Source of the DNA: an uncultured Candidatus Thioglobus sp.
GTDB lineage: Bacteria; Pseudomonadota; Gammaproteobacteria; PS1; Pseudothioglobaceae
Assembly: GCA_000205985.2 (NCBI GenBank)
Contig: GG730002.1
Location: 1 to 38,402, forward strand
Direction of reading: 5' to 3'
Length of the DNA: 38,402 nt
Below, one piece after another: positions 20 through 38,402 of this stretch (position 1 is its first letter; the number at the start of each line of letters is the position of its first letter). The translations under genes and the position numbers were made by a program. The notes under the pieces are model-generated. The model worked only from the letters and a program-made list of their open reading frames with translations. It searched no databases and was not told where the DNA came from.

Positions 20-222
20 AAGACTCTTCGAGTTTGATTTTGTGCCACGCCATAATCTGCATAAAAAAAGCTTTGAATTTCTTTGTGTACATGCCACACA
101 GGATCACCATCTCGCCCACATGCTGGATAGTACAATGAGTTTTCTAGTAGTTCTTTAAGTGGGAATTTATCAGTAATTTCCCCATCTTTAATTTTGATAT
201 TTTTAAGTAGCTCTTTGTGCAT
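20..222 (-). CDS. Hypothetical protein, 3' part cut by the insert end
   Basis: An open frame on the minus strand starts with ATG at 222-220 and runs without a stop into the insert end, giving about 68 residues of an incomplete protein. The N-terminus begins MHKELLKNIKIKDGEI and continues with a distinctive YYPACGRDGDPVWH stretch at about residues 36-49, then a FFYADYG motif. I do not recognise the family; the motif reads like a conserved domain rather than random translation. There is no strong Shine-Dalgarno. It lies at the element side of the orphan tRNA end at 669-691, so it is probably cargo of an integrated element. Function unknown. Confidence 0.6.
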
Positions 223-310
223 TTTTACAGCCTATTGAATAATTGAGCTTCAATTATCTCAAATAGTTAAGTCATGACATGTCTCTGACCTGTATAAGGT
301 ACGGGTTTTC

Positions 311-433
311 TTATTCAAATAAGTCTATTTGACTTTTAGACCGTAGAATAATTTTATTCATTTCCTTAGATTTTGATTTAAGTAACTCTTTAACTTTAAT
401 ATAGTTACTTCTATCTATCCATTTAGTGGACAT
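311..433 (-). pseudogene. Short degenerate reading frame, possible gene remnant
   Basis: A minus-strand frame from ATG 433 to TAA 311 encodes 40 residues, lysine/serine rich, beginning MSTKWIDRSNYIKVKELL. The same frame stays open upstream to about 515 without a start codon, giving roughly 65 codons between stops. That pattern suits the 3' remnant of a decayed gene. No family is recognised, and it could be a chance frame in AT-rich DNA. Confidence 0.25.
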
Positions 434-552
434 GGTGAGTTCTTGCTGTATACACTTGCAAGAAGAGTTCTTAAAGTCATTAACAACCTTGGTATAAGTC
501 TGTTTATCAAATATTTAATTTAAGTATTTTAAAAGTGATTTTTCTAGAAGAG

Positions 553-668: not shown

Positions 669-691
669 TTCGAGTCTCTCCTTCCGCACCA
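669..691 (+). other. Orphan tRNA 3' end (candidate att site, tRNA-Leu-like)
   Basis: The segment has the exact layout of a tRNA 3' end: T-loop TTCGAGT (669-675), T-stem 3' arm CTCTC (676-680), acceptor strand CTTCCGC (681-687), discriminator A and an encoded CCA (689-691). The preceding bases cannot form the T-stem (GAGAG would be needed), and no D-arm, anticodon arm or 5' acceptor (GCGGAAG) lies upstream. It is therefore a fragment, not a gene. Such fragments are left at the distal end of elements that integrate into a tRNA 3' end; the intact tRNA, probably tRNA-Leu, would lie left of the window. Confidence 0.75.
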
Positions 692-707: not shown

Positions 708-1526
708 ATGAAAACAATCATTCAACACAGTACTGATGCGCAGATTTCTACACAGATAACAGACATCTATCACTGTAAGATCAAGTATTACGATACACAC
801 ATTCGTTTCTATACCGATCAACAAATTGATCTTGATGTGTTAAGACAAACTCATTCAACTGATTTTAATTATCTACCCACACTTGATTTTTCACAAATAA
901 AGTTATTTGTGAGCGATATGGACTCGACCTTAATTAATATTGAATGCATTGATGAGATTGCTGATTTTGCAAATATTAAACCTCAAGTGGCTGCTATTAC
1001 TGAACGTGCCATGCAGGGTGAGTTGGATTTTAAAACCTCTTTAATTGAGCGTGTTGCTTTATTAAAAGGACTTGATATTGATGTATTGAATAAGGTTTAT
1101 GCTGATCGATTGCGAGTAAATGAGGGAGGCAGGGAATTGGTTCGGTTTTTAAAAACCAAGTCGATAAAAACTTCAGTTGTGTCTGGCGGGTTTACTTTTT
1201 TTACCAATCGATTAGCCAAAGATTTAGGTTTGGATCATTCTCGTGGTTGTGTGTTAAATATTGAGAATAATCAACTAGCAGGAACAACGCAAGGAGATAT
1301 TATTGATGCTCGTGCTAAGGCTGAATTTGTACGAGAGTTGTGCAACGAGTACTCAATTGAGCTGAATCAAGTGATTGTCGTTGGCGATGGCGCTAATGAT
1401 TTAGAAATGATGAAAATAGCAGGATTGTCAGTGGCTTATCACGCAAAACCGTCAGTATTGGCGCAAGCAAATATTGTCATTAGTTTCGGTGGATTAGATA
1501 AAATAATAGATTTATTCGATGAATAG
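708..1526 (+). CDS. serB: Phosphoserine phosphatase
   Basis: This 272-residue HAD-family enzyme removes the phosphate from O-phosphoserine, the last step of serine synthesis, in the cytoplasm. HAD motif I is DMDST at residues 70-74, with D70 the expected nucleophile and D72 the acid/base. Motif II is the SGG at 159-161, and motif III is GDGANDLEMM at 226-235, which binds Mg2+. Residues 1-60 form a short N-terminal domain, shorter than in the enterobacterial enzyme. A weak AGG precedes the ATG. It is the first backbone gene after the orphan tRNA end and ccmF starts 6 nt after its stop, so the two are probably cotranscribed. Confidence 0.93.
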   Translation: MKTIIQHSTDAQISTQITDIYHCKIKYYDTHIRFYTDQQIDLDVLRQTHSTDFNYLPTLDFSQIKLFVSDMDSTLINIECIDEIADFANIKPQVAAITERAMQGELDFKTSLIERVALLKGLDIDVLNKVYADRLRVNEGGRELVRFLKTKSIKTSVVSGGFTFFTNRLAKDLGLDHSRGCVLNIENNQLAGTTQGDIIDARAKAEFVRELCNEYSIELNQVIVVGDGANDLEMMKIAGLSVAYHAKPSVLAQANIVISFGGLDKIIDLFDE

Positions 1527-13266: not shown

Positions 13267-13956
13267 TCAAGATAACTTTAGAGGCTCTTTTCTAAAAATC
13301 GCAAGCAAAATTCTATAAATATTTTGCTTGCGATTATTAAATCTAAATTCACATTCTTTTAAGTGTAAATTAAACATCTTTTTATCCATTCCTTTAAATT
13401 TTACCAATCTATTTTTAGCATAACCCCAAAATGATTCTATGCCGTTAATATGTGCATTTCCTCGTGCAAACTCATTCTTGCCATGGTGCACTCTAAAATG
13501 CTTCTTATAACCAAAATCTACTAAGCCATTATACCCTCGCCACCCATCTGAATGAATCACACTATCAACACTAGTCTTGCCCTTGATAATCCTTTGTAGA
13601 GTAGCACTTTTACAGTCTGGTACTATTTCTGTATAAACTTCATTACCACGTTTTAACAAGCCAAATACTATCGTTTTTCCTCTGGCGCCACGGCCGCGTT
13701 TACCGCGGACGCGCCGTGCGCCAAAATAACTTTCATCGACTTCAATCTGCCCCACTAACAAGGCAGATTGGATCATGGATAATTCCAAGATCCTGAGTCT
13801 AATAGCGGTCAAATATTTATTGACCGTTGGTCTTGATATCTTTGTTAAATGAGAGATTTGAGTTGCACTCAAATCCTCAGAAAACAACAAAATTATTTGT
13901 CTAAATTTAGCCTCAGAAATATGGGCATGTTTTACATACTTGTTTTTTACTGTCAT
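13267..13956 (-). CDS. IS1595-family (ISXO2-like) transposase, copy A
   Basis: The 229-residue transposase catalyses cut-and-paste or copy-type movement of its own element. A helix-turn-helix lies at about residues 26-54 (LSATQISHLTKISRPTVNKYL). The ISXO2-like catalytic domain has D74 in VDESYFGARR, D137 in HSDGWRGY, and the HINGIESFWGYAKNRL segment at 169-184 with N171 and K181, fitting the DDNK/DDEK catalytic set of this family. A basic RGKRGRGARGK stretch lies at 84-94. Its stop codon TGA lies inside the terminal inverted repeat. The small size points to the IS1016-like group. It appears intact. Confidence 0.93.
   Translation of the reverse strand: MTVKNKYVKHAHISEAKFRQIILLFSEDLSATQISHLTKISRPTVNKYLTAIRLRILELSMIQSALLVGQIEVDESYFGARRVRGKRGRGARGKTIVFGLLKRGNEVYTEIVPDCKSATLQRIIKGKTSVDSVIHSDGWRGYNGLVDFGYKKHFRVHHGKNEFARGNAHINGIESFWGYAKNRLVKFKGMDKKMFNLHLKECEFRFNNRKQNIYRILLAIFRKEPLKLS
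13297..13335 (-). repeat. 15-bp hairpin inside IS copy A
   Basis: AATCGCAAGCAAAAT (13297-13311) and its exact complement (13321-13335) flank a 9-nt loop within the C-terminal coding part of the transposase gene. The same hairpin is in copy B at 37913-37951. It may stop or slow outside transcription, or limit transposase expression. Confidence 0.6.
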
Positions 13957-15164: not shown

Positions 15165-15345
15165 AGTCGTCTGTTGTGTTTGTGGTTGACCATATCCCCT
15201 GAGCCGATAAATAAACACATAAGGAGATGCGATAGCTTACTATTGAGCAAGCCCACCTCGAAGTGGGAAGCCTGCGGTGATCTTCAAACTTCCGCCTTGA
15301 GCCTTCTTGGTTCAGGTTTCGTTCAGCACGACACAATAGATCTTT
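15165..15345 (+). ncRNA. ssrS: 6S RNA
   Basis: 6S RNA binds the RNA polymerase-sigma70 holoenzyme and represses it in stationary phase or starvation. The highly conserved CCCCTGAGCCGATA is at 15196-15209. The ends close a terminal stem (TCTGTTGTGT at 15170-15179 with ACACAATAGA at 15331-15340, one G-U pair). A hairpin CTTGAGCC/GGTTCAGG at about 15296-15316 matches the position of a conserved stem in the 3' half. The cyclo-ligase gene follows 27 nt downstream, the classical ssrS-ygfA arrangement. Ends are approximate. A candidate -10 GATAAT is at about 15156-15161. Confidence 0.92.
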
Positions 15346-15372
15346 TTCTTAATCTTTGGCGCTTCAGTTATA

Positions 15373-15936
15373 ATGCCAAATATGCAAACATTAAGGCAAT
15401 CCATTAGAATCCAAAGACGATCTGTTTCGGCGTCCGATCGAGAAAAATTTGCCAAAAAATTGTTACACCAAGTGCAAAAAATAGCAAATTTTCAAAATGG
15501 ACAAAAAATTGCTATTTATTTACCCAATGACGGTGAAATTAACCCAAAATATATACAAAACTTCTTAAAAAATAAGGGTTTTAGTGTCTATTTGCCTGTA
15601 TTAATCGGTAAAAGTCTTAAATTTGCAAAAATTGGTAAAAATTTCAGAAAAAATCGATTTGGCATTGATGAACCGATTTCTACCGAGATTTTGAATGCTA
15701 ATCAGATGAACATCATCTTTATGCCCCTTGTTGGTTTTGATGAGTTCAAAAATCGCATTGGCATGGGCGGTGGTTTTTACGATCGCACACTAGCATTTAA
15801 AAAACGGCAGCAAAACTATAAAAACCCTAAACTTTATGGTTTGGCTTTTGATTGTCAAGAAGTGGCAAAACTTAAAACTAAATCTTGGGATGTGTCACTT
15901 GACACGGTGATTACACCAACTACAATTTACCAGTAG
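15373..15936 (+). CDS. ygfA: 5-formyltetrahydrofolate cyclo-ligase
   Basis: This 187-residue cytoplasmic enzyme uses ATP to convert 5-formyl-THF to 5,10-methenyl-THF, returning the stored folate to the active pool. The ATP-binding signature GMGGGFYDRTL is at residues 130-140, and the N-terminus has the basic LRQSIRIQRR stretch typical of the family. Length is normal. In-frame ATGs are at 15373 and 15382; the first is used. The 6S RNA directly upstream is the conserved partner, and the mRNA is probably processed from a joint transcript. The last 17 bases overlap the 3' end of the convergent ubiH-type gene. Confidence 0.93.
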   Translation: MPNMQTLRQSIRIQRRSVSASDREKFAKKLLHQVQKIANFQNGQKIAIYLPNDGEINPKYIQNFLKNKGFSVYLPVLIGKSLKFAKIGKNFRKNRFGIDEPISTEILNANQMNIIFMPLVGFDEFKNRIGMGGGFYDRTLAFKKRQQNYKNPKLYGLAFDCQEVAKLKTKSWDVSLDTVITPTTIYQ

Positions 15937-32227: not shown

Positions 32228-34786
32228 ATGAAAACAGCCTATTTAGCTCACATTGAAGAGCGCGCTAAAGATAATTTACCACCACTGGTATTAAATGCAG
32301 AACAAACTCAATCCGTGGTTGAAAAATTAATTAATGGCGATGATGAAAAATTTTACCTGGATTTATTGACTCATCGAGTGCCTCCAGGTGTAGATGAGGC
32401 TGCCTATGTCAAAGCCAGCTTTTTGGCTAGTGTTGCCAAAGGTGAACAGACTTGCAATGCAATTGACCAAGCACAGGCAACGTTTTTATTAGGCACCATG
32501 TTGGGCGGTTATAACATATCACCATTGATCGAGCTATTAGAAATTGGCACGACAGCACAAGTAGCTTGTGATGCTCTATCAAAAACATTATTAATTTATG
32601 AAGCCTATCAAACGATTGTGGAGAAATCAATTGACAATACTTTTGCTAAGCAGGTCGTTGATAGCTGGGTAGATGCCGATTGGTTTACAACCAAAGAAGA
32701 ATTACCAAAAGAAATTAAACTAACCGTCTTTCGCGTAGAAGGTGAGATTAATACTGATGATTTATCGCCGGCAACTGAGGCATGGTCACGTCCCGATATT
32801 CCACTGCATGCTCAATCAATGTTGGTTAAAAAAATGGACGATCCGCTAGAAATCATTGCACAACTTAAAGAAAAAGGCTTGCCGCTTGCTTTTGTTGGTG
32901 ATGTTGTGGGTACTGGGTCTTCACGTAAATCAGCCATTAACTCTGTACTGTGGCACATGGGTAATGACATTAATTATGTGCCAAATAAGCGTGGTGGTGG
33001 CGTGGTACTAGGTGGCAACATTGCGCCAATCTTCTTTAACACAGCGGAAGACTCAGGGGCACTGCCTATTGAGTGTGACGTAACCAAGATGAACATGGGT
33101 GATGAAATTACCATCTACCCATACGAGGGGAAAATTACTAACGCCAGTGGCGAGACTATTTCTACTTTTGAATTATCGCCAACCACCATGCCAGATGAAG
33201 TGCGTGCAGGCGGCCGTATTCCACTGATTATTGGCAGAGGCCTTACAGACAAAACCCGTCAAGATTTAGGGCTGCCAGTGAGTAAGGTTTTCTTACGCCC
33301 ACAAGATGCCAGCAATAGTAGCGTAGGCTATACTTTAGCACAAAAAATTGTAGGTAAAGCTTGCGGTGTTAAAGGCATTCGTCCAGGTACGTATTGCGAA
33401 CCGCGCATGACCACCGTCGGTTCACAAGACACCACTGGTGCAATGACTCGTGATGAATTAAAAGAGCTAGCTTGTTTGGGCTTCTCAGCAGACTTAGTCA
33501 TGCAAAGTTTTTGTCATACGGCGGCTTATCCAAAACCAGTTGATTTAGAGCTCCAGCATTCATTGCCTGATTTTATGCAATCCCGTGGCGGTGTGGCGCT
33601 TAAACCGGGCGATGGTATTATTCACTCGTGGCTTAATCGCATGTTGCTACCCGATACAGTAGGCACAGGTGGTGACTCACACACACGATTCCCAATTGGT
33701 ATTAGCTTTCCTGCTGGATCTGGTTTGGTAGCTTTTGGCGCTTCAATCGGTGTTTTACCACTTGACATGCCAGAATCAGTATTGGTCAAATTTAGTGGCG
33801 CCATGCAAGAGGGCATAACACTACGCGACCTGGTGAATGCTATTCCATACGTCGCCATTCAGCAAGGGTTATTGACCGTTGAAAAATCCAACAAGAAAAA
33901 TATCTTTTCGGGTCGTATCTTAGAAATCGAAGGCTTGGGAGATCTTAAGATAGAACAAGCCTTTGAGCTTACTGATGCCTCTGCTGAACGCTCAGCTAAC
34001 GGCTGCACAATCAAGCTCAACAAAGAGCCAGTGTCGGAATACTTACAATCTAACATTGCCCTACTATCATCGATGATAGAGATGGGCTACGAAGATAAGA
34101 AGACCATCGCTCGTCGTATTCAAGCCATGCAAAAATGGTTAGACGCGCCTGAACTTTTAAAGGCGGATGATAATTGTGAATACGCTGCGGTAATCGAGAT
34201 AAACCTTGATGAAATCAAGGAGCCTATTCTAGCTTGTCCTAATGATCCAGATGATGTTAAGCTACTTTCAGATGTTGCCAATACTGCTATTGATGAAGTA
34301 TTTATTGGCTCATGCATGACTAATATCGGCCACTTTAGAGCGACTGCCCAGTTATTAAAAGACCAATCAAAATTACCAACTGAGCTTTGGGTTGCGCCAC
34401 CTACTCGTATGGATGAGGCGCAACTTAGGAAAGAAGGCATCTACAAGGTTTTTGATGCAATTACTAAGCATACTGAGATACCAGGTTGCTCGCTTTGTAT
34501 GGGCAATCAGGCTCGTGTTAATAATAATGCCACCGTAGTCTCAACCTCAACACGCAATTTTCCAAATCGCCTAGGCGATGGTGCGAACGTTTACTTATCT
34601 TCTGCCGAAGTAGCAGCCATTTCAGCAAAATTAGGCCACATTCCTACCGTTGATGAATACTTAAATGCGATGCGAGCAATCAAACCAATATCGACTGATA
34701 TTTACCAATACCTTAACTTTGATCGGATATCAGAATACCGAGAAGCGATTGGACACATTGCGCTTGATACTATTCTTGAAGAGTAA
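32228..34786 (+). CDS. acnB: Aconitate hydratase B
   Basis: AcnB interconverts citrate and isocitrate through a [4Fe-4S] cluster. The protein of about 852 residues shows the AcnB order: HEAT-like N-terminal domain ([18 protein letters not shown]), swivelling domain ([20 protein letters not shown]), then three catalytic domains with cluster cysteines in [12 protein letters not shown] and [11 protein letters not shown] and the [15 protein letters not shown] signature. ATG 32228 matches the family start ([14 protein letters not shown], like E. coli MLEEYRKHVAERA); an in-frame ATG at 32186 would add 14 residues. Neither has a strong ribosome site. It ends in a bidirectional terminator. Confidence 0.95.
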
Positions 34787-34800
34787 TATTTACTAGCGGA

Positions 34801-34840
34801 CAATAAAAAGCCGCTTATTTCAGATAGCGGCTTTTTATTG
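34801..34840. terminator. Bidirectional terminator between acnB and rpmB-rpmG
   Basis: A perfect 15-bp stem (34801-34815 with 34826-34840, CAATAAAAAGCCGCT and complement) with a 10-nt loop has A-runs on one side and T-runs on the other, so it can end both acnB and the convergent rpmG transcript. Confidence 0.93.
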
Positions 34841-34857
34841 GAATTTTTTAAAGAAAC

Positions 34858-35013
34858 TTATTTAATTTTTGTTTCTTTGTACATCACATGTTTTCTAACA
34901 ACAGGGTCAAACTTTTTAACTTCCACCTTTTCTGGGTGAAGGCGTTTGTTTTTAGTTGTTGTATAAAAATGACCCGTTTTGGCTGATGATACTAATTTAA
35001 TCTTTTCTCTCAT
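34858..35013 (-). CDS. rpmG: 50S ribosomal protein L33
   Basis: A 51-residue protein starting [20 protein letters not shown] and ending YKETKIK is a typical gammaproteobacterial L33 with the TKNKR and [12 protein letters not shown] segments. It is the Cys-free, zinc-independent type. It lies 9 nt after rpmB on the same strand, the conserved rpmB-rpmG pair, with a GGAGTAAAG site before the ATG. Transcription ends at the shared terminator. Confidence 0.95.
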
Positions 35014-35022
35014 ACTTTACTC

Positions 35023-35259
35023 CTAAACCTTTTCGCCACGTGCACGGATTTCTGCTAATACGGTATCAATGCCTTTCTTATCGACAATACGCAAACCCTT
35101 TGCAGTTAACTTTAATTTTACAAAACGATTTTCACTCTCCACCCAAAAACGGTGCGTGTGAAGATTTGGATAAAAACGACGACGCGTTCTGTTGTTCGCG
35201 TGTGATACATTATTACCACTAATCGGGCGCTTACCGGTGACTTGACATATCTTTGCCAT
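35023..35259 (-). CDS. rpmB: 50S ribosomal protein L28
   Basis: The 78-residue protein starts [12 protein letters not shown] and carries [19 protein letters not shown] and the [19 protein letters not shown] segment, all standard for proteobacterial L28. First gene of the rpmB-rpmG operon; its promoter should lie in the AT-rich 120 nt before tRNA-Ser, which is read the other way. Confidence 0.96.
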
Positions 35260-35341
35260 AACTAACTTACCAAAAATCTAAAAGAAAGGAATTATACTTA
35301 AAAAATACAAGTTTTCAAAGCTAAATTATATAAATATCCTA

Positions 35342-35370
35342 TTTACTATTGGGCCAACAAACGGTATTAT
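35342..35370 (+). promoter_or_regulatory. Promoter of tRNA-Ser
   Basis: TTTACT (35342-35347) and TATTAT (35365-35370) with 17-nt spacing sit 11 nt upstream of the mature tRNA 5' end. The position and spacing are good for a tRNA promoter. Confidence 0.55.
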
Positions 35371-35381
35371 AACCACCCATT

Positions 35382-35471
35382 GGAGGGATGGCAGAGCGGC
35401 TGAATGCACTGGTCTTGAAAACCAGCAAGGGTTAATACCCTTCCAGGGTTCAAATCCCTGTCCCTCCACCA
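35382..35471 (+). tRNA. tRNA-Ser (anticodon UGA)
   Basis: A 90-nt class II tRNA with acceptor GGAGGGA/TCCCTCC, anticodon loop CTTGAAA (anticodon TGA at 35416-35418), a long variable arm (AAGGGTTAATACCCTT), T-loop TTCAAAT and encoded CCA at 35469-35471. It reads UCN serine codons. Its 3' end faces the element remnant with an integrase fragment, so it is a likely attachment gene. Confidence 0.97.
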
Positions 35472-35512
35472 AATTACCCCTTATGTAGCAACGTTTACAA
35501 GATAATTTTTTA

Positions 35513-35538
35513 AAAGTTTCACTACATTTTCACTACAT
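35513..35538 (+). repeat. 26-nt repeat, copy 2 (candidate recombinase-binding site)
   Basis: Matches 553-578 at 24 of 26 positions. Within this copy the unit TTTCACTACA occurs twice in tandem, at 35517-35526 and 35528-35537, one helical turn apart (11 nt), as expected for recombinase arm-type sites. A partial inverted copy (TGTAGC) lies at 35484-35489 nearer the tRNA. Confidence 0.6.
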
Positions 35539-35604: not shown

Positions 35605-36351
35605 TTAATTTGCTGGCTGAGGGATTTTTCCATCTATTTGAAAGAATGTATATGGATAACGATATACCTTGTTGTGATGATCGCATCGAAATAACACTTG
35701 ATCGCCGTCCGTTTCACAAAACCACTGCGTTGTATCTACTGGCTTCTTACTGGCTAAGGCCTCAATATCAAATAATGCCACATTAATCCCCTCTTCAGGA
35801 TCTCTTGCTGAGATATATTCAAAGGCTTTAATGCCAAAAGATCTCATCGCATTACCGAGCCTCTGAGTTGCCTTATAATTACTAGAATCCGTTAGTATGC
35901 TCTTATGCTGTACGAATGGTTCTAATTGAAGTTGAGCACCATATTTTGACTTGTAGTCAACTGACAAAACGGTATGCTGCGTTCTTAATTTTGAACTAGG
36001 CGATGAACTCATGCCTATCCAAAAAATAAATCTATAGTAAGCTGCTTCACACATAAGAGTAGTTATAGATTTTGATCCAAAGAATAGACTTGTCTCGGTT
36101 TTTGAACCAAATCGAGAGCCCCAATCCAACGGAGGATATCTAAATGGCGTTGAAAGCAAGTAATGAATATTCTTATCTGTACTTTCAGATTTAGGCTTGG
36201 TCTCTTCTATCATTTGCTCCAAAAGTAACTGCTCTTCTAAAGAGTCTACCAGTCCCATTGTAGCAACTTGCTCTTGACTTTCAACAATCCGAAACATTGA
36301 ACTACTAACCGCACTCATGCCCGATTCTTCAATAAGCCCTTCCCAATTCAT
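35605..36351 (-). CDS. RES-domain toxin (NAD+ phosphorylase type)
   Basis: This 248-residue protein has the RES domain, named for conserved Arg, Glu and Ser. They are visible as R80 in WGSRFG (R71 in TPFRYPP is a second conserved Arg), E102 in CEAAYYRF and S181 in EYISARDPEEGINVALFD. RES toxins characterised so far degrade NAD+ (phosphorolysis or hydrolysis) and stop growth unless bound by a partner Xre/MbcA antitoxin. The first 60 residues, before the domain, are Glu/Ser-rich. The gene begins 2 nt after the antitoxin stop, in the usual antitoxin-toxin order. It is intact although the antitoxin frame is broken. Confidence 0.85.
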   Translation of the reverse strand: MNWEGLIEESGMSAVSSSMFRIVESQEQVATMGLVDSLEEQLLLEQMIEETKPKSESTDKNIHYLLSTPFRYPPLDWGSRFGSKTETSLFFGSKSITTLMCEAAYYRFIFWIGMSSSPSSKLRTQHTVLSVDYKSKYGAQLQLEPFVQHKSILTDSSNYKATQRLGNAMRSFGIKAFEYISARDPEEGINVALFDIEALASKKPVDTTQWFCETDGDQVLFRCDHHNKVYRYPYTFFQIDGKIPQPAN

Positions 36352-36799: not shown

Positions 36800-37245
36800 T
36801 CAACCACAGGGTGCATACTTTATTACATCATTTAGATGGTCTGGAGATAAATGAGCATATTTTATCGTCATTGTTAAAGTGCTATGATTTAACACCTTCT
36901 GCAAGCTCAAAACATCGCCACCATTCATAATAAAATGACTGGCAAAGGTATGTCTCAATATATGTGTACTTTGTCCTTGAGCTTTTTTAATGCCCGATCT
37001 TTCATAACAACTCGCAAAAGTATTCTTATTAGCCGCTAATGGTAGATCTAATTGAGCTTCTAATTTTGGATTAATTGGAATATATCTATTCTTACCACTT
37101 TTAGTATTAAATAAACAAATCTTGCCGTTTCTAATATGCTCAGGTTGCAAGCTTCTAGCCTCTCCCCACCTTGTGCCGCAAGTTAAGCATATCAAAGCAC
37201 ACAGGTAAGTATCTTTATATTGTTTAAGCTCTTTAAATAATTTTT
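36800..37245 (-). pseudogene. Tyrosine recombinase (integrase), 5' part cut by IS copy B
   Basis: About 148 codons of the C-terminal catalytic domain remain. The active-site residues are visible: Arg in LTCGTRWGEAR, the HILRHTFASHF box with His and Arg, the second His in LNHSTLTMTIKYAHLS, and the Tyr in the same segment. The frame stays open through 37196-37245 (KELKQYKDTYLCALIC) into the IS edge, where the DNA-binding N-terminal half should start. That half is not on the far side of the IS. The TTG at 37195 is not a natural start. The fragment is probably inactive for integration. Confidence 0.85.
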
Positions 37246-37291: not shown

Positions 37292-37981
37292 ATGACAGTA
37301 AAAAACAAGTATGTAAAACATGCCCATATTTCTGAGGCTAAATTTAGACAAATAATTTTGTTGTTTTCTGAGGATTTGAGTGCAACTCAAATCTCTCATT
37401 TAACAAAGATATCAAGACCAACGGTCAATAAATATTTGACCGCTATTAGACTCAGGATCTTGGAATTATCCATGATCCAATCTGCCTTGTTAGTGGGGCA
37501 GATTGAAGTCGATGAAAGTTATTTTGGCGCACGGCGCGTCCGCGGTAAACGCGGCCGTGGCGCCAGAGGAAAAACGATAGTATTTGGCTTGTTAAAACGT
37601 GGTAATGAAGTTTATACAGAAATAGTACCAGACTGTAAAAGTGCTACTCTACAAAGGATTATCAAGGGCAAGACTAGTGTTGATAGTGTGATTCATTCAG
37701 ATGGGTGGCGAGGGTATAATGGCTTAGTAGATTTTGGTTATAAGAAGCATTTTAGAGTGCACCATGGCAAGAATGAGTTTGCACGAGGAAATGCACATAT
37801 TAACGGCATAGAATCATTTTGGGGTTATGCTAAAAATAGATTGGTAAAATTTAAAGGAATGGATAAAAAGATGTTTAATTTACACTTAAAAGAATGTGAA
37901 TTTAGATTTAATAATCGCAAGCAAAATATTTATAGAATTTTGCTTGCGATTTTTAGAAAAGAGCCTCTAAAGTTATCTTGA
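37292..37981 (+). CDS. IS1595-family (ISXO2-like) transposase, copy B
   Basis: The 229-residue product is identical to that of copy A, with the same helix-turn-helix, D74, D137, N171 and K181. Identity of both copies implies recent transposition or gene conversion and at least one active source. The stop TGA is again inside the right terminal repeat. Transcription here reads toward the 3' end of the cytochrome c gene. Confidence 0.93.
   Translation: MTVKNKYVKHAHISEAKFRQIILLFSEDLSATQISHLTKISRPTVNKYLTAIRLRILELSMIQSALLVGQIEVDESYFGARRVRGKRGRGARGKTIVFGLLKRGNEVYTEIVPDCKSATLQRIIKGKTSVDSVIHSDGWRGYNGLVDFGYKKHFRVHHGKNEFARGNAHINGIESFWGYAKNRLVKFKGMDKKMFNLHLKECEFRFNNRKQNIYRILLAIFRKEPLKLS
37913..37951 (+). 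repeat. 15-bp hairpin inside IS copy B
   Basis: Copy of the hairpin at 13297-13335: arms at 37913-37927 and 37937-37951 with a 9-nt loop, inside the C-terminal codons of the transposase. Confidence 0.6.
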
Positions 37982-37984
37982 CCC

Positions 37985-38384
37985 TTATTTAAACCTTGAA
38001 TCGTATTTTTGTTGTATTTCATTAGGCCACAAACTGTGAATATAATCTAACAAACCTTGCTTTTCAGCTTCATTTAATTGGTCTTTAAACGGTGGCATCC
38101 AACCGCCAAGTTTAGCACCACCATCGTTAATCGTAGTCATTAATGCCTTTGGCGAATGATGCCAAGCATGCGCTGTGCCATTAACAGGAGGAGCTGGGAA
38201 TTTTCCATCTGCATTCCTTTTTTTCCAATCCTTAGTCAATCCTTCTCCGGCTTGACCATGGCAAGCAATACAATTTTTATCAAAAACAGACTGCCCTAAA
38301 TTGGCACTCTTTTTAAGTTTTGTATTTTCGCTAAAAAAAGGTTGGCTTATTTTCACAGTTTCTTTTGCTGCTGCTTTTCCTGCT
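37985..38384 (-). CDS. Periplasmic c-type cytochrome, 5' end cut by the insert end
   Basis: About 133 codons of a class I cytochrome c. The heme site is CIACH (in FDKNCIACHGQAGEG), the axial Met is probably in GGWMPPFKDQL, and DYIHSLWPNEIQ closes the domain. The frame stays open upstream of an internal GTG (38356) into the insert end with an Ala/Lys-rich KAAAKET stretch, so the signal peptide is missing. It resembles small periplasmic electron carriers used in sulfur oxidation or nitrate respiration, and its heme would be attached by the Ccm system at the left end. Its stop is the first codon beyond IS copy B, so insertion happened exactly at its 3' end. Confidence 0.85.
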
Positions 38385-38402
38385 GTGGATCCCCGGTTCC
38401 GG
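38385..38402. other. Cloning-vector polylinker-like end
   Basis: GTGGATCCCCGG followed by TTCCGG resembles a blunt cloning site with BamHI and SmaI/KpnI sites (GTGGGATCCCCGGGTACC in common fosmids) read with a few errors. It supports a cloned-insert origin. I compared it from memory only. Confidence 0.65.

Follow-up and report, generated by a model that had tools for sequence, protein, structure and literature searches.

A displaced 3′ fragment of tRNA-Leu(UAG) before serB as the probable end of an integrative element in a Thioglobus/SUP05 genome

How does the tail of a tRNA gene come to lie directly before serB, with no tRNA upstream of it? This question is raised by positions 669-691 (TTCGAGTCTCTCCTTCCGCACCA) of a 38,402-nucleotide stretch of DNA, the window, which is contig GG730002.1 of assembly GCA_000205985.2 (contig C35 of bin G000) and whose base 1 is the contig end. 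The host is a marine sulfur-oxidising gammaproteobacterium of the Thioglobus/SUP05 group, and its bin comprises 1.17 Mb in 92 contigs, 85.5% complete and with 4.3% contamination. Our answer, to which we give a probability of roughly 95%, is that positions 1-691 are the attR of an integrative element inserted in the 3′ end of tRNA-Leu(UAG), between cysG and serB.

On the plus strand, positions 669-691 are the exact final 23 nt of tRNA-Leu(UAG), from the T-loop through CCA, and constitute the att core. The intact copy is an 85-nt tRNA-Leu(TAG) at 6620-6704 of contig C30 in the same bin; 62 of its 85 nt (73%) are absent at 669-691. Neither ARAGORN nor Rfam called a tRNA at these positions, and the only tRNA called in the whole window is a tRNA-Ser(UGA) at 35382-35471. 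When the 23-mer was compared with every position of the window, on either strand, only one exact match appeared and the second best had 8 mismatches, which excludes a chance match as the origin of the fragment. Exactly two copies occur in the bin, namely the fragment and the 3′ end of the intact tRNA on C30, and the fragment has the same orientation as the intact gene, a signature sought by Islander. The original prediction of an orphan tRNA 3′ end at this place was therefore correct, except that it expected the full tRNA to begin with GCGGAAG; the actual start is GCGGGAG, and the acceptor stem contains a G-U pair.

C30 also supplies an uninserted version of the locus, in the order cysG, intact tRNA-Leu, serB, ccmF, so that the intact tRNA-Leu directly before serB, proposed beforehand as a check, was found without an insert in the bin itself. 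The spacer between tRNA and serB is 16 nt long and identical on C30 and in the window. BLAST of C30 against the window gave one alignment, 96.3% identical over 1,979 bp and starting at C30 6682 and window 669; this is the first base of the tRNA fragment, and identity thus breaks exactly at the predicted element boundary. An uninserted site in a close relative, as used by Islander, is provided by C30 together with loci elsewhere in the family. C30 represents a sister strain or else a close relative that ended up in the same bin, and it serves as the uninserted comparison in both cases; C30 and C21 may also come from a sister strain or, with 4.3% contamination in the bin, from a contaminant, and the comparison holds regardless. 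The serB frame on C30 contains two single-base indels, possibly sequencing errors.

We then compared the serB locus (708-1526, plus strand) across relatives, using 83 family genomes (an order-level search gave the identical 83), of which 66 had a serB match and 63 the 23-mer. In 34 relatives (two tables combined), serB was preceded by the 23-mer at a distance of 7-861 bp, with both on one contig and strand, and ARAGORN found an intact tRNA-Leu near serB at 22 of 29 relative loci examined. Adjacency of tRNA-Leu(UAG) and serB is thus widespread in the family, although it is absent from genus g5. As predicted, serB is the first backbone gene to the right of the element. In several genomes tRNA-Leu and serB are on separate contigs, the pattern that an insertion would cause.

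Insertion polymorphism near serB, which the prediction had also made a point of, was seen independently in Ca. Thioglobus pontius (G062, JACNGB010000040), G076 and G080, and in decayed form in G004 and G045, where degraded fragments lie ~18 bp before serB, as expected for a useless relic. Ca. T. pontius has an intact tRNA-Leu with the identical arm motif on contig C56 and a naked fragment (attR) before serB on C14. This homologous element therefore has an intact, regenerated tRNA at its opposite end; the window contig ends at base 1. In G076 the arrangement is the same, but the arm motif differs, and the integrase beside attL at its tRNA-Leu has 312 aa. In G080 (CSMAG_2470), intact tRNA-Leu, ~160 bp of element end and fragment all lie within one contig. 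This remnant (L055, G080:C31, 6105-6372), which holds little beyond two element ends, is most readily explained as an element that would have lost its interior between its two arm repeats.

What lies to the left of the fragment had been predicted to be element DNA, and three features agree with this: a low GC content (30.5% versus 39.5 ± 3.2%), a gene present in one other family genome, and an end, at 553-668, that resembles those of other tRNA-integrated elements. The visible part amounts to ~650 bp, the remainder lying beyond the contig end. The G/C run at 1-22 is probably an assembly artefact of the contig end, homology to G004:C140 (L058) beginning at about base 20. At 23-228 (minus strand), the contig end truncates a gene for a 284-aa protein, of which the first 72-74 codons remain, 78% identical to L058:1779-2633; among the 83 family genomes this cargo gene is present only in G000 and G004. 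The protein matched nothing in Pfam, PHROGs or PADLOC and had no relative in viral_contigs. A second cargo gene, a small ORF of ~60 aa at 305-493 (minus strand), has its homologue in a small gene of the G004 and G061 islands (tblastx, 45-64%), and G004 carries both genes in the same relative order. Neither of the two matched PHROGs, and a viral_contigs search with the attR pattern gave no match. No tyrosine integrase is encoded within the 668 visible bases, nor was one belonging to the element at the tRNA-Leu site of Ca. T. pontius found in that assembly. Copies of the small ORF also occur in a 12-kb repeat of G061, but this proved uninformative: it duplicates part of another island, where these ends were not found. 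We make no claim that the element end is a promoter for serB, a scan having given fewer promoter-like sites than shuffled sequences.

The end itself consists of two parts, both on the plus strand. At 555-578 lies a direct-repeat pair, AGTTTCACTACA and ATTTAACTACAT, whose motif AGTTTMACYACANTTTMACYAYAT had 12 exact matches in the 83 genomes while a reversed-pattern control had 0. All 12 adjoin a tRNA or a tRNA fragment, and in the window's own bin the motif marks tRNA-Leu(UAG), tRNA-Ser(UGA) and tRNA-Ser(GCU). The motif starts ~43 bp past CCA at attL and ends roughly 90 bp before the core at attR. Arm-type sites of lambda-type tyrosine integrases are expected to be spaced in this way, and the repeats at 555-578 are thus putative arm-type sites of such an enzyme. 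Next to them, the AT-rich stretch at 604-668 forms the conserved inner part of attR and is identical at 63 of 65 positions to G062:C14 57-121. Since the adjoining serB of the window is only 71% identical to that of Ca. T. pontius, this conservation indicates a transfer of the element end between genera. A block related to 604-668 also occurs in the tRNA-Ser attR of G061 and of G000:C33.

The same kind of end is found near the other edge of the window, where the attL of a second element contains a regenerated tRNA-Ser(UGA) (35382-35471, plus strand; core 35449-35471). Here attL, attR and empty site were all recovered from the bin: attR lies on C33 (L166, 635-657), and the empty site on C21 (L167) has a left flank 97% identical to window 34746-35483 and a right flank that continues as on C33 (84% overall). 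Arm-like repeats, recognised by motif alignment, follow at 35515-35538 (plus strand), 43 bp past CCA. The element carries a RES-domain toxin-like cargo gene (35605-36351, minus strand; PF08808, E=1e-18) and the C-terminal part of a tyrosine integrase (36800-37245, minus strand; PF00589), which is 97% identical to the G061 integrase and is cut at 37245 by an IS1595-type insertion (transposase at 37292-37981; PF12762). At a third site, tRNA-Ser(GCU) on C42, the repeats accompany a 54-aa integrase remnant. One system thus marks three tRNA genes of this bin. The IS1595-type copy at 37292-37981 and another at 13267-13956 are 99.6% identical over 747 bp and in opposite orientation; the cytochrome c gene at 37985-38401, after the right copy, may have been joined there by assembly through the repeat.

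Related elements with these ends carry type IV pilus, PM2-like provirus, defence or zinc-uptake cargo. G061 has a complete 19.7-kb element in tRNA-Ser(UGA) (608,030-627,809 of G061:C1; L053 13030 to L054 13809), in which a 317-aa integrase with Int_N, Phage_integrase and arm-binding domains adjoins attL, together with type IV pilus genes (N_methyl pilins, T2SSE ATPases, secretin, PilY1) and a HigB-like toxin with an HTH partner. An IS1595-like transposase gene overlaps a pilin-like gene in this pilus element. The same genome has two attR-type tRNA-Ser(GCU) fragments ~5 kb apart around ZrgA, FtsX-permease, DUF3299 and Fur-family genes, and Ca. T. pontius carries YhaV/PrlF, AbiEi/AbiEii, a type I methyltransferase and a RhuM-like gene (PADLOC PDC-S23) beside its tRNA-Leu attL. 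In G002, tRNA-His is the site of an 11-kb provirus (L204) whose coat protein is of the PM2 type (P2_N and P2_C); like the window's elements, this PM2-like (corticovirus) provirus has the same arm repeats and end spacing and a related integrase (57-66%), and it differs in its tRNA and its viral cargo. L091 (IMG/VR 2663763580) joins an inovirus with a Zot-like protein, a replication protein and an ssDNA-binding protein to a further integrase, which shares 99% identity (317 aa) with the integrase of the G061 tRNA-Ser island and 97% with the window remnant. Unlike the window, the visible part of L091 has no matching att core or arm repeats, and no inovirus gene was seen in the window. The far end of L091 runs directly into uppS, with no recognisable tRNA fragment or arm repeats there.

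Beginning from what was observed directly, that is, the fragment, the same-bin empty site, the shared end structure and the occupied and empty states in relatives, we propose the following model. A tyrosine integrase most likely recombined the 23-bp core from T-loop to CCA, the agent presumably belonging to the 317-aa Int_N/Phage_integrase family. An element-borne copy would have restored a complete tRNA at attL, on the far left and outside the contig, and the chromosome's own tRNA 3′ tail would have been displaced to 669-691. The integrase would hold the right end through the direct repeats at 555-578, as candidate arm sites, and through 604-668. At the left end, the model predicts an intact tRNA-Leu followed ~43 bp further by AGTTTCACTACAATTTAACTACAT.

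Could the junction at 669 instead be an assembly chimera, in which the tRNA 3′ end served as a short repeat through which unrelated DNA was joined to serB? The contig of this MAG ends only 668 bp from the fragment, its first ~20 bases look artefactual, and the tRNA repeat seems to break assemblies, contigs of G047 and G072 ending at the tRNA. Yet we consider a chimera highly improbable, since an independent assembly, that of Ca. T. pontius, has the same 604-691 before its own diverged serB, which contradicts a chimera for that stretch, and G080 has intact tRNA and fragment in one contig. An inserted element is the reading that we prefer, and it may be that the Leu element is a decayed relic or end remnant, mostly deleted as in G080, and not a still mobile island. 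This is a real possibility that we nonetheless rather doubt: the G080 mini-remnant, with one arm pair in ~160 bp between intact tRNA and fragment, and the truncated integrases at both tRNA-Ser sites of the bin agree with it, but neither the fragment nor 604-668 shows decay, the interior holds at least 550 bp of cargo whose frames are partly open, and the contig continues.

That the Leu element is a small temperate virus (inovirus or PM2-like) and not an island appears unlikely, given that its visible genes lack a PHROGs match and that the closest relative at the Leu site carries defence genes instead. Favouring a virus are the occurrence of the same integrase/end system in inovirus L091, with its near-identical integrase, and in the PM2-like provirus in tRNA-His, as well as the position of the G004 homologue of the 284-aa gene near a weak filamentous-phage replication match (PF23343, below cut-off).

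The mechanism and the scar are of a well-known, textbook kind. The T-loop/junction subsite is among the known crossover subsites of tDNA-integrated islands (PMC4383910), and the element resembles the Islander-type islands of that study in its displaced tRNA 3′ fragment in direct orientation, its intact tRNA at the empty site and the tyrosine integrase beside attL, here seen in related elements; there is no essential difference; attL and integrase of the window's Leu element lie beyond the contig end. Tycheposons, described in Prochlorococcus and reported in Methylophilaceae (PMC10872708), share with it, so far as that secondary source portrays them, a marine streamlined host, islands linked to tRNAs and tyrosine recombinases, and variable, sometimes nutrient-related cargo, a likeness of description. 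A difference from tycheposons is that the integrase family here is common to small phages.

The somewhat novel part is a single integrase/end module common to unrelated cargo across several tRNA genes in the Thioglobus/SUP05 family; a literature search, thin on subscription journals, found no paper on such a shared module in this family. We define the module by the 317-aa integrase, the T-loop core and paired 12-bp arm repeats ~43 bp inside attL and ~90 bp inside attR. We tentatively suggest, with the case close to balanced and leaning slightly against, that this single module has spread over tRNA-Leu(UAG), tRNA-Ser(UGA), tRNA-Ser(GCU) and tRNA-His in the family and serves inoviruses, PM2-like viruses and virus-free islands (type IV pili, defence, zinc-uptake) interchangeably, as a tycheposon-like exchange system. 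If so, islands may move by means of borrowed phage integrases. The shared ends suggest a common entry route for phages, defence genes, pili and metal-uptake genes into streamlined Thioglobus/SUP05 genomes. The exact edge of an insertion hotspot is also pinned in uncultured marine sulfur oxidisers, and the arm-repeat motif finds element ends in fragmented MAGs even where tRNA fragment or integrase is missing.

Several minor observations were made alongside. In G051, three displaced tRNA-Ser(UGA) fragments and an intact gene lie within 21 kb (L176/L177, G051:C1:1353050-1374149), probably the product of tandem insertions whose ends are of other types. In G061, island segments of ~6 kb (L051/L052, about 521,700-546,700 of G061:C1) are duplicated at 99% identity with a spacing of ~12-13 kb, and contain Sel1-repeat-like and MazG-like genes, so named from sequence only. 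Finally, a 6S RNA (RF00013) lies at window 15165-15346, just upstream of a 187-aa ORF (15373-15936) that resembles a 5-formyltetrahydrofolate cyclo-ligase gene; this arrangement is an ordinary one.
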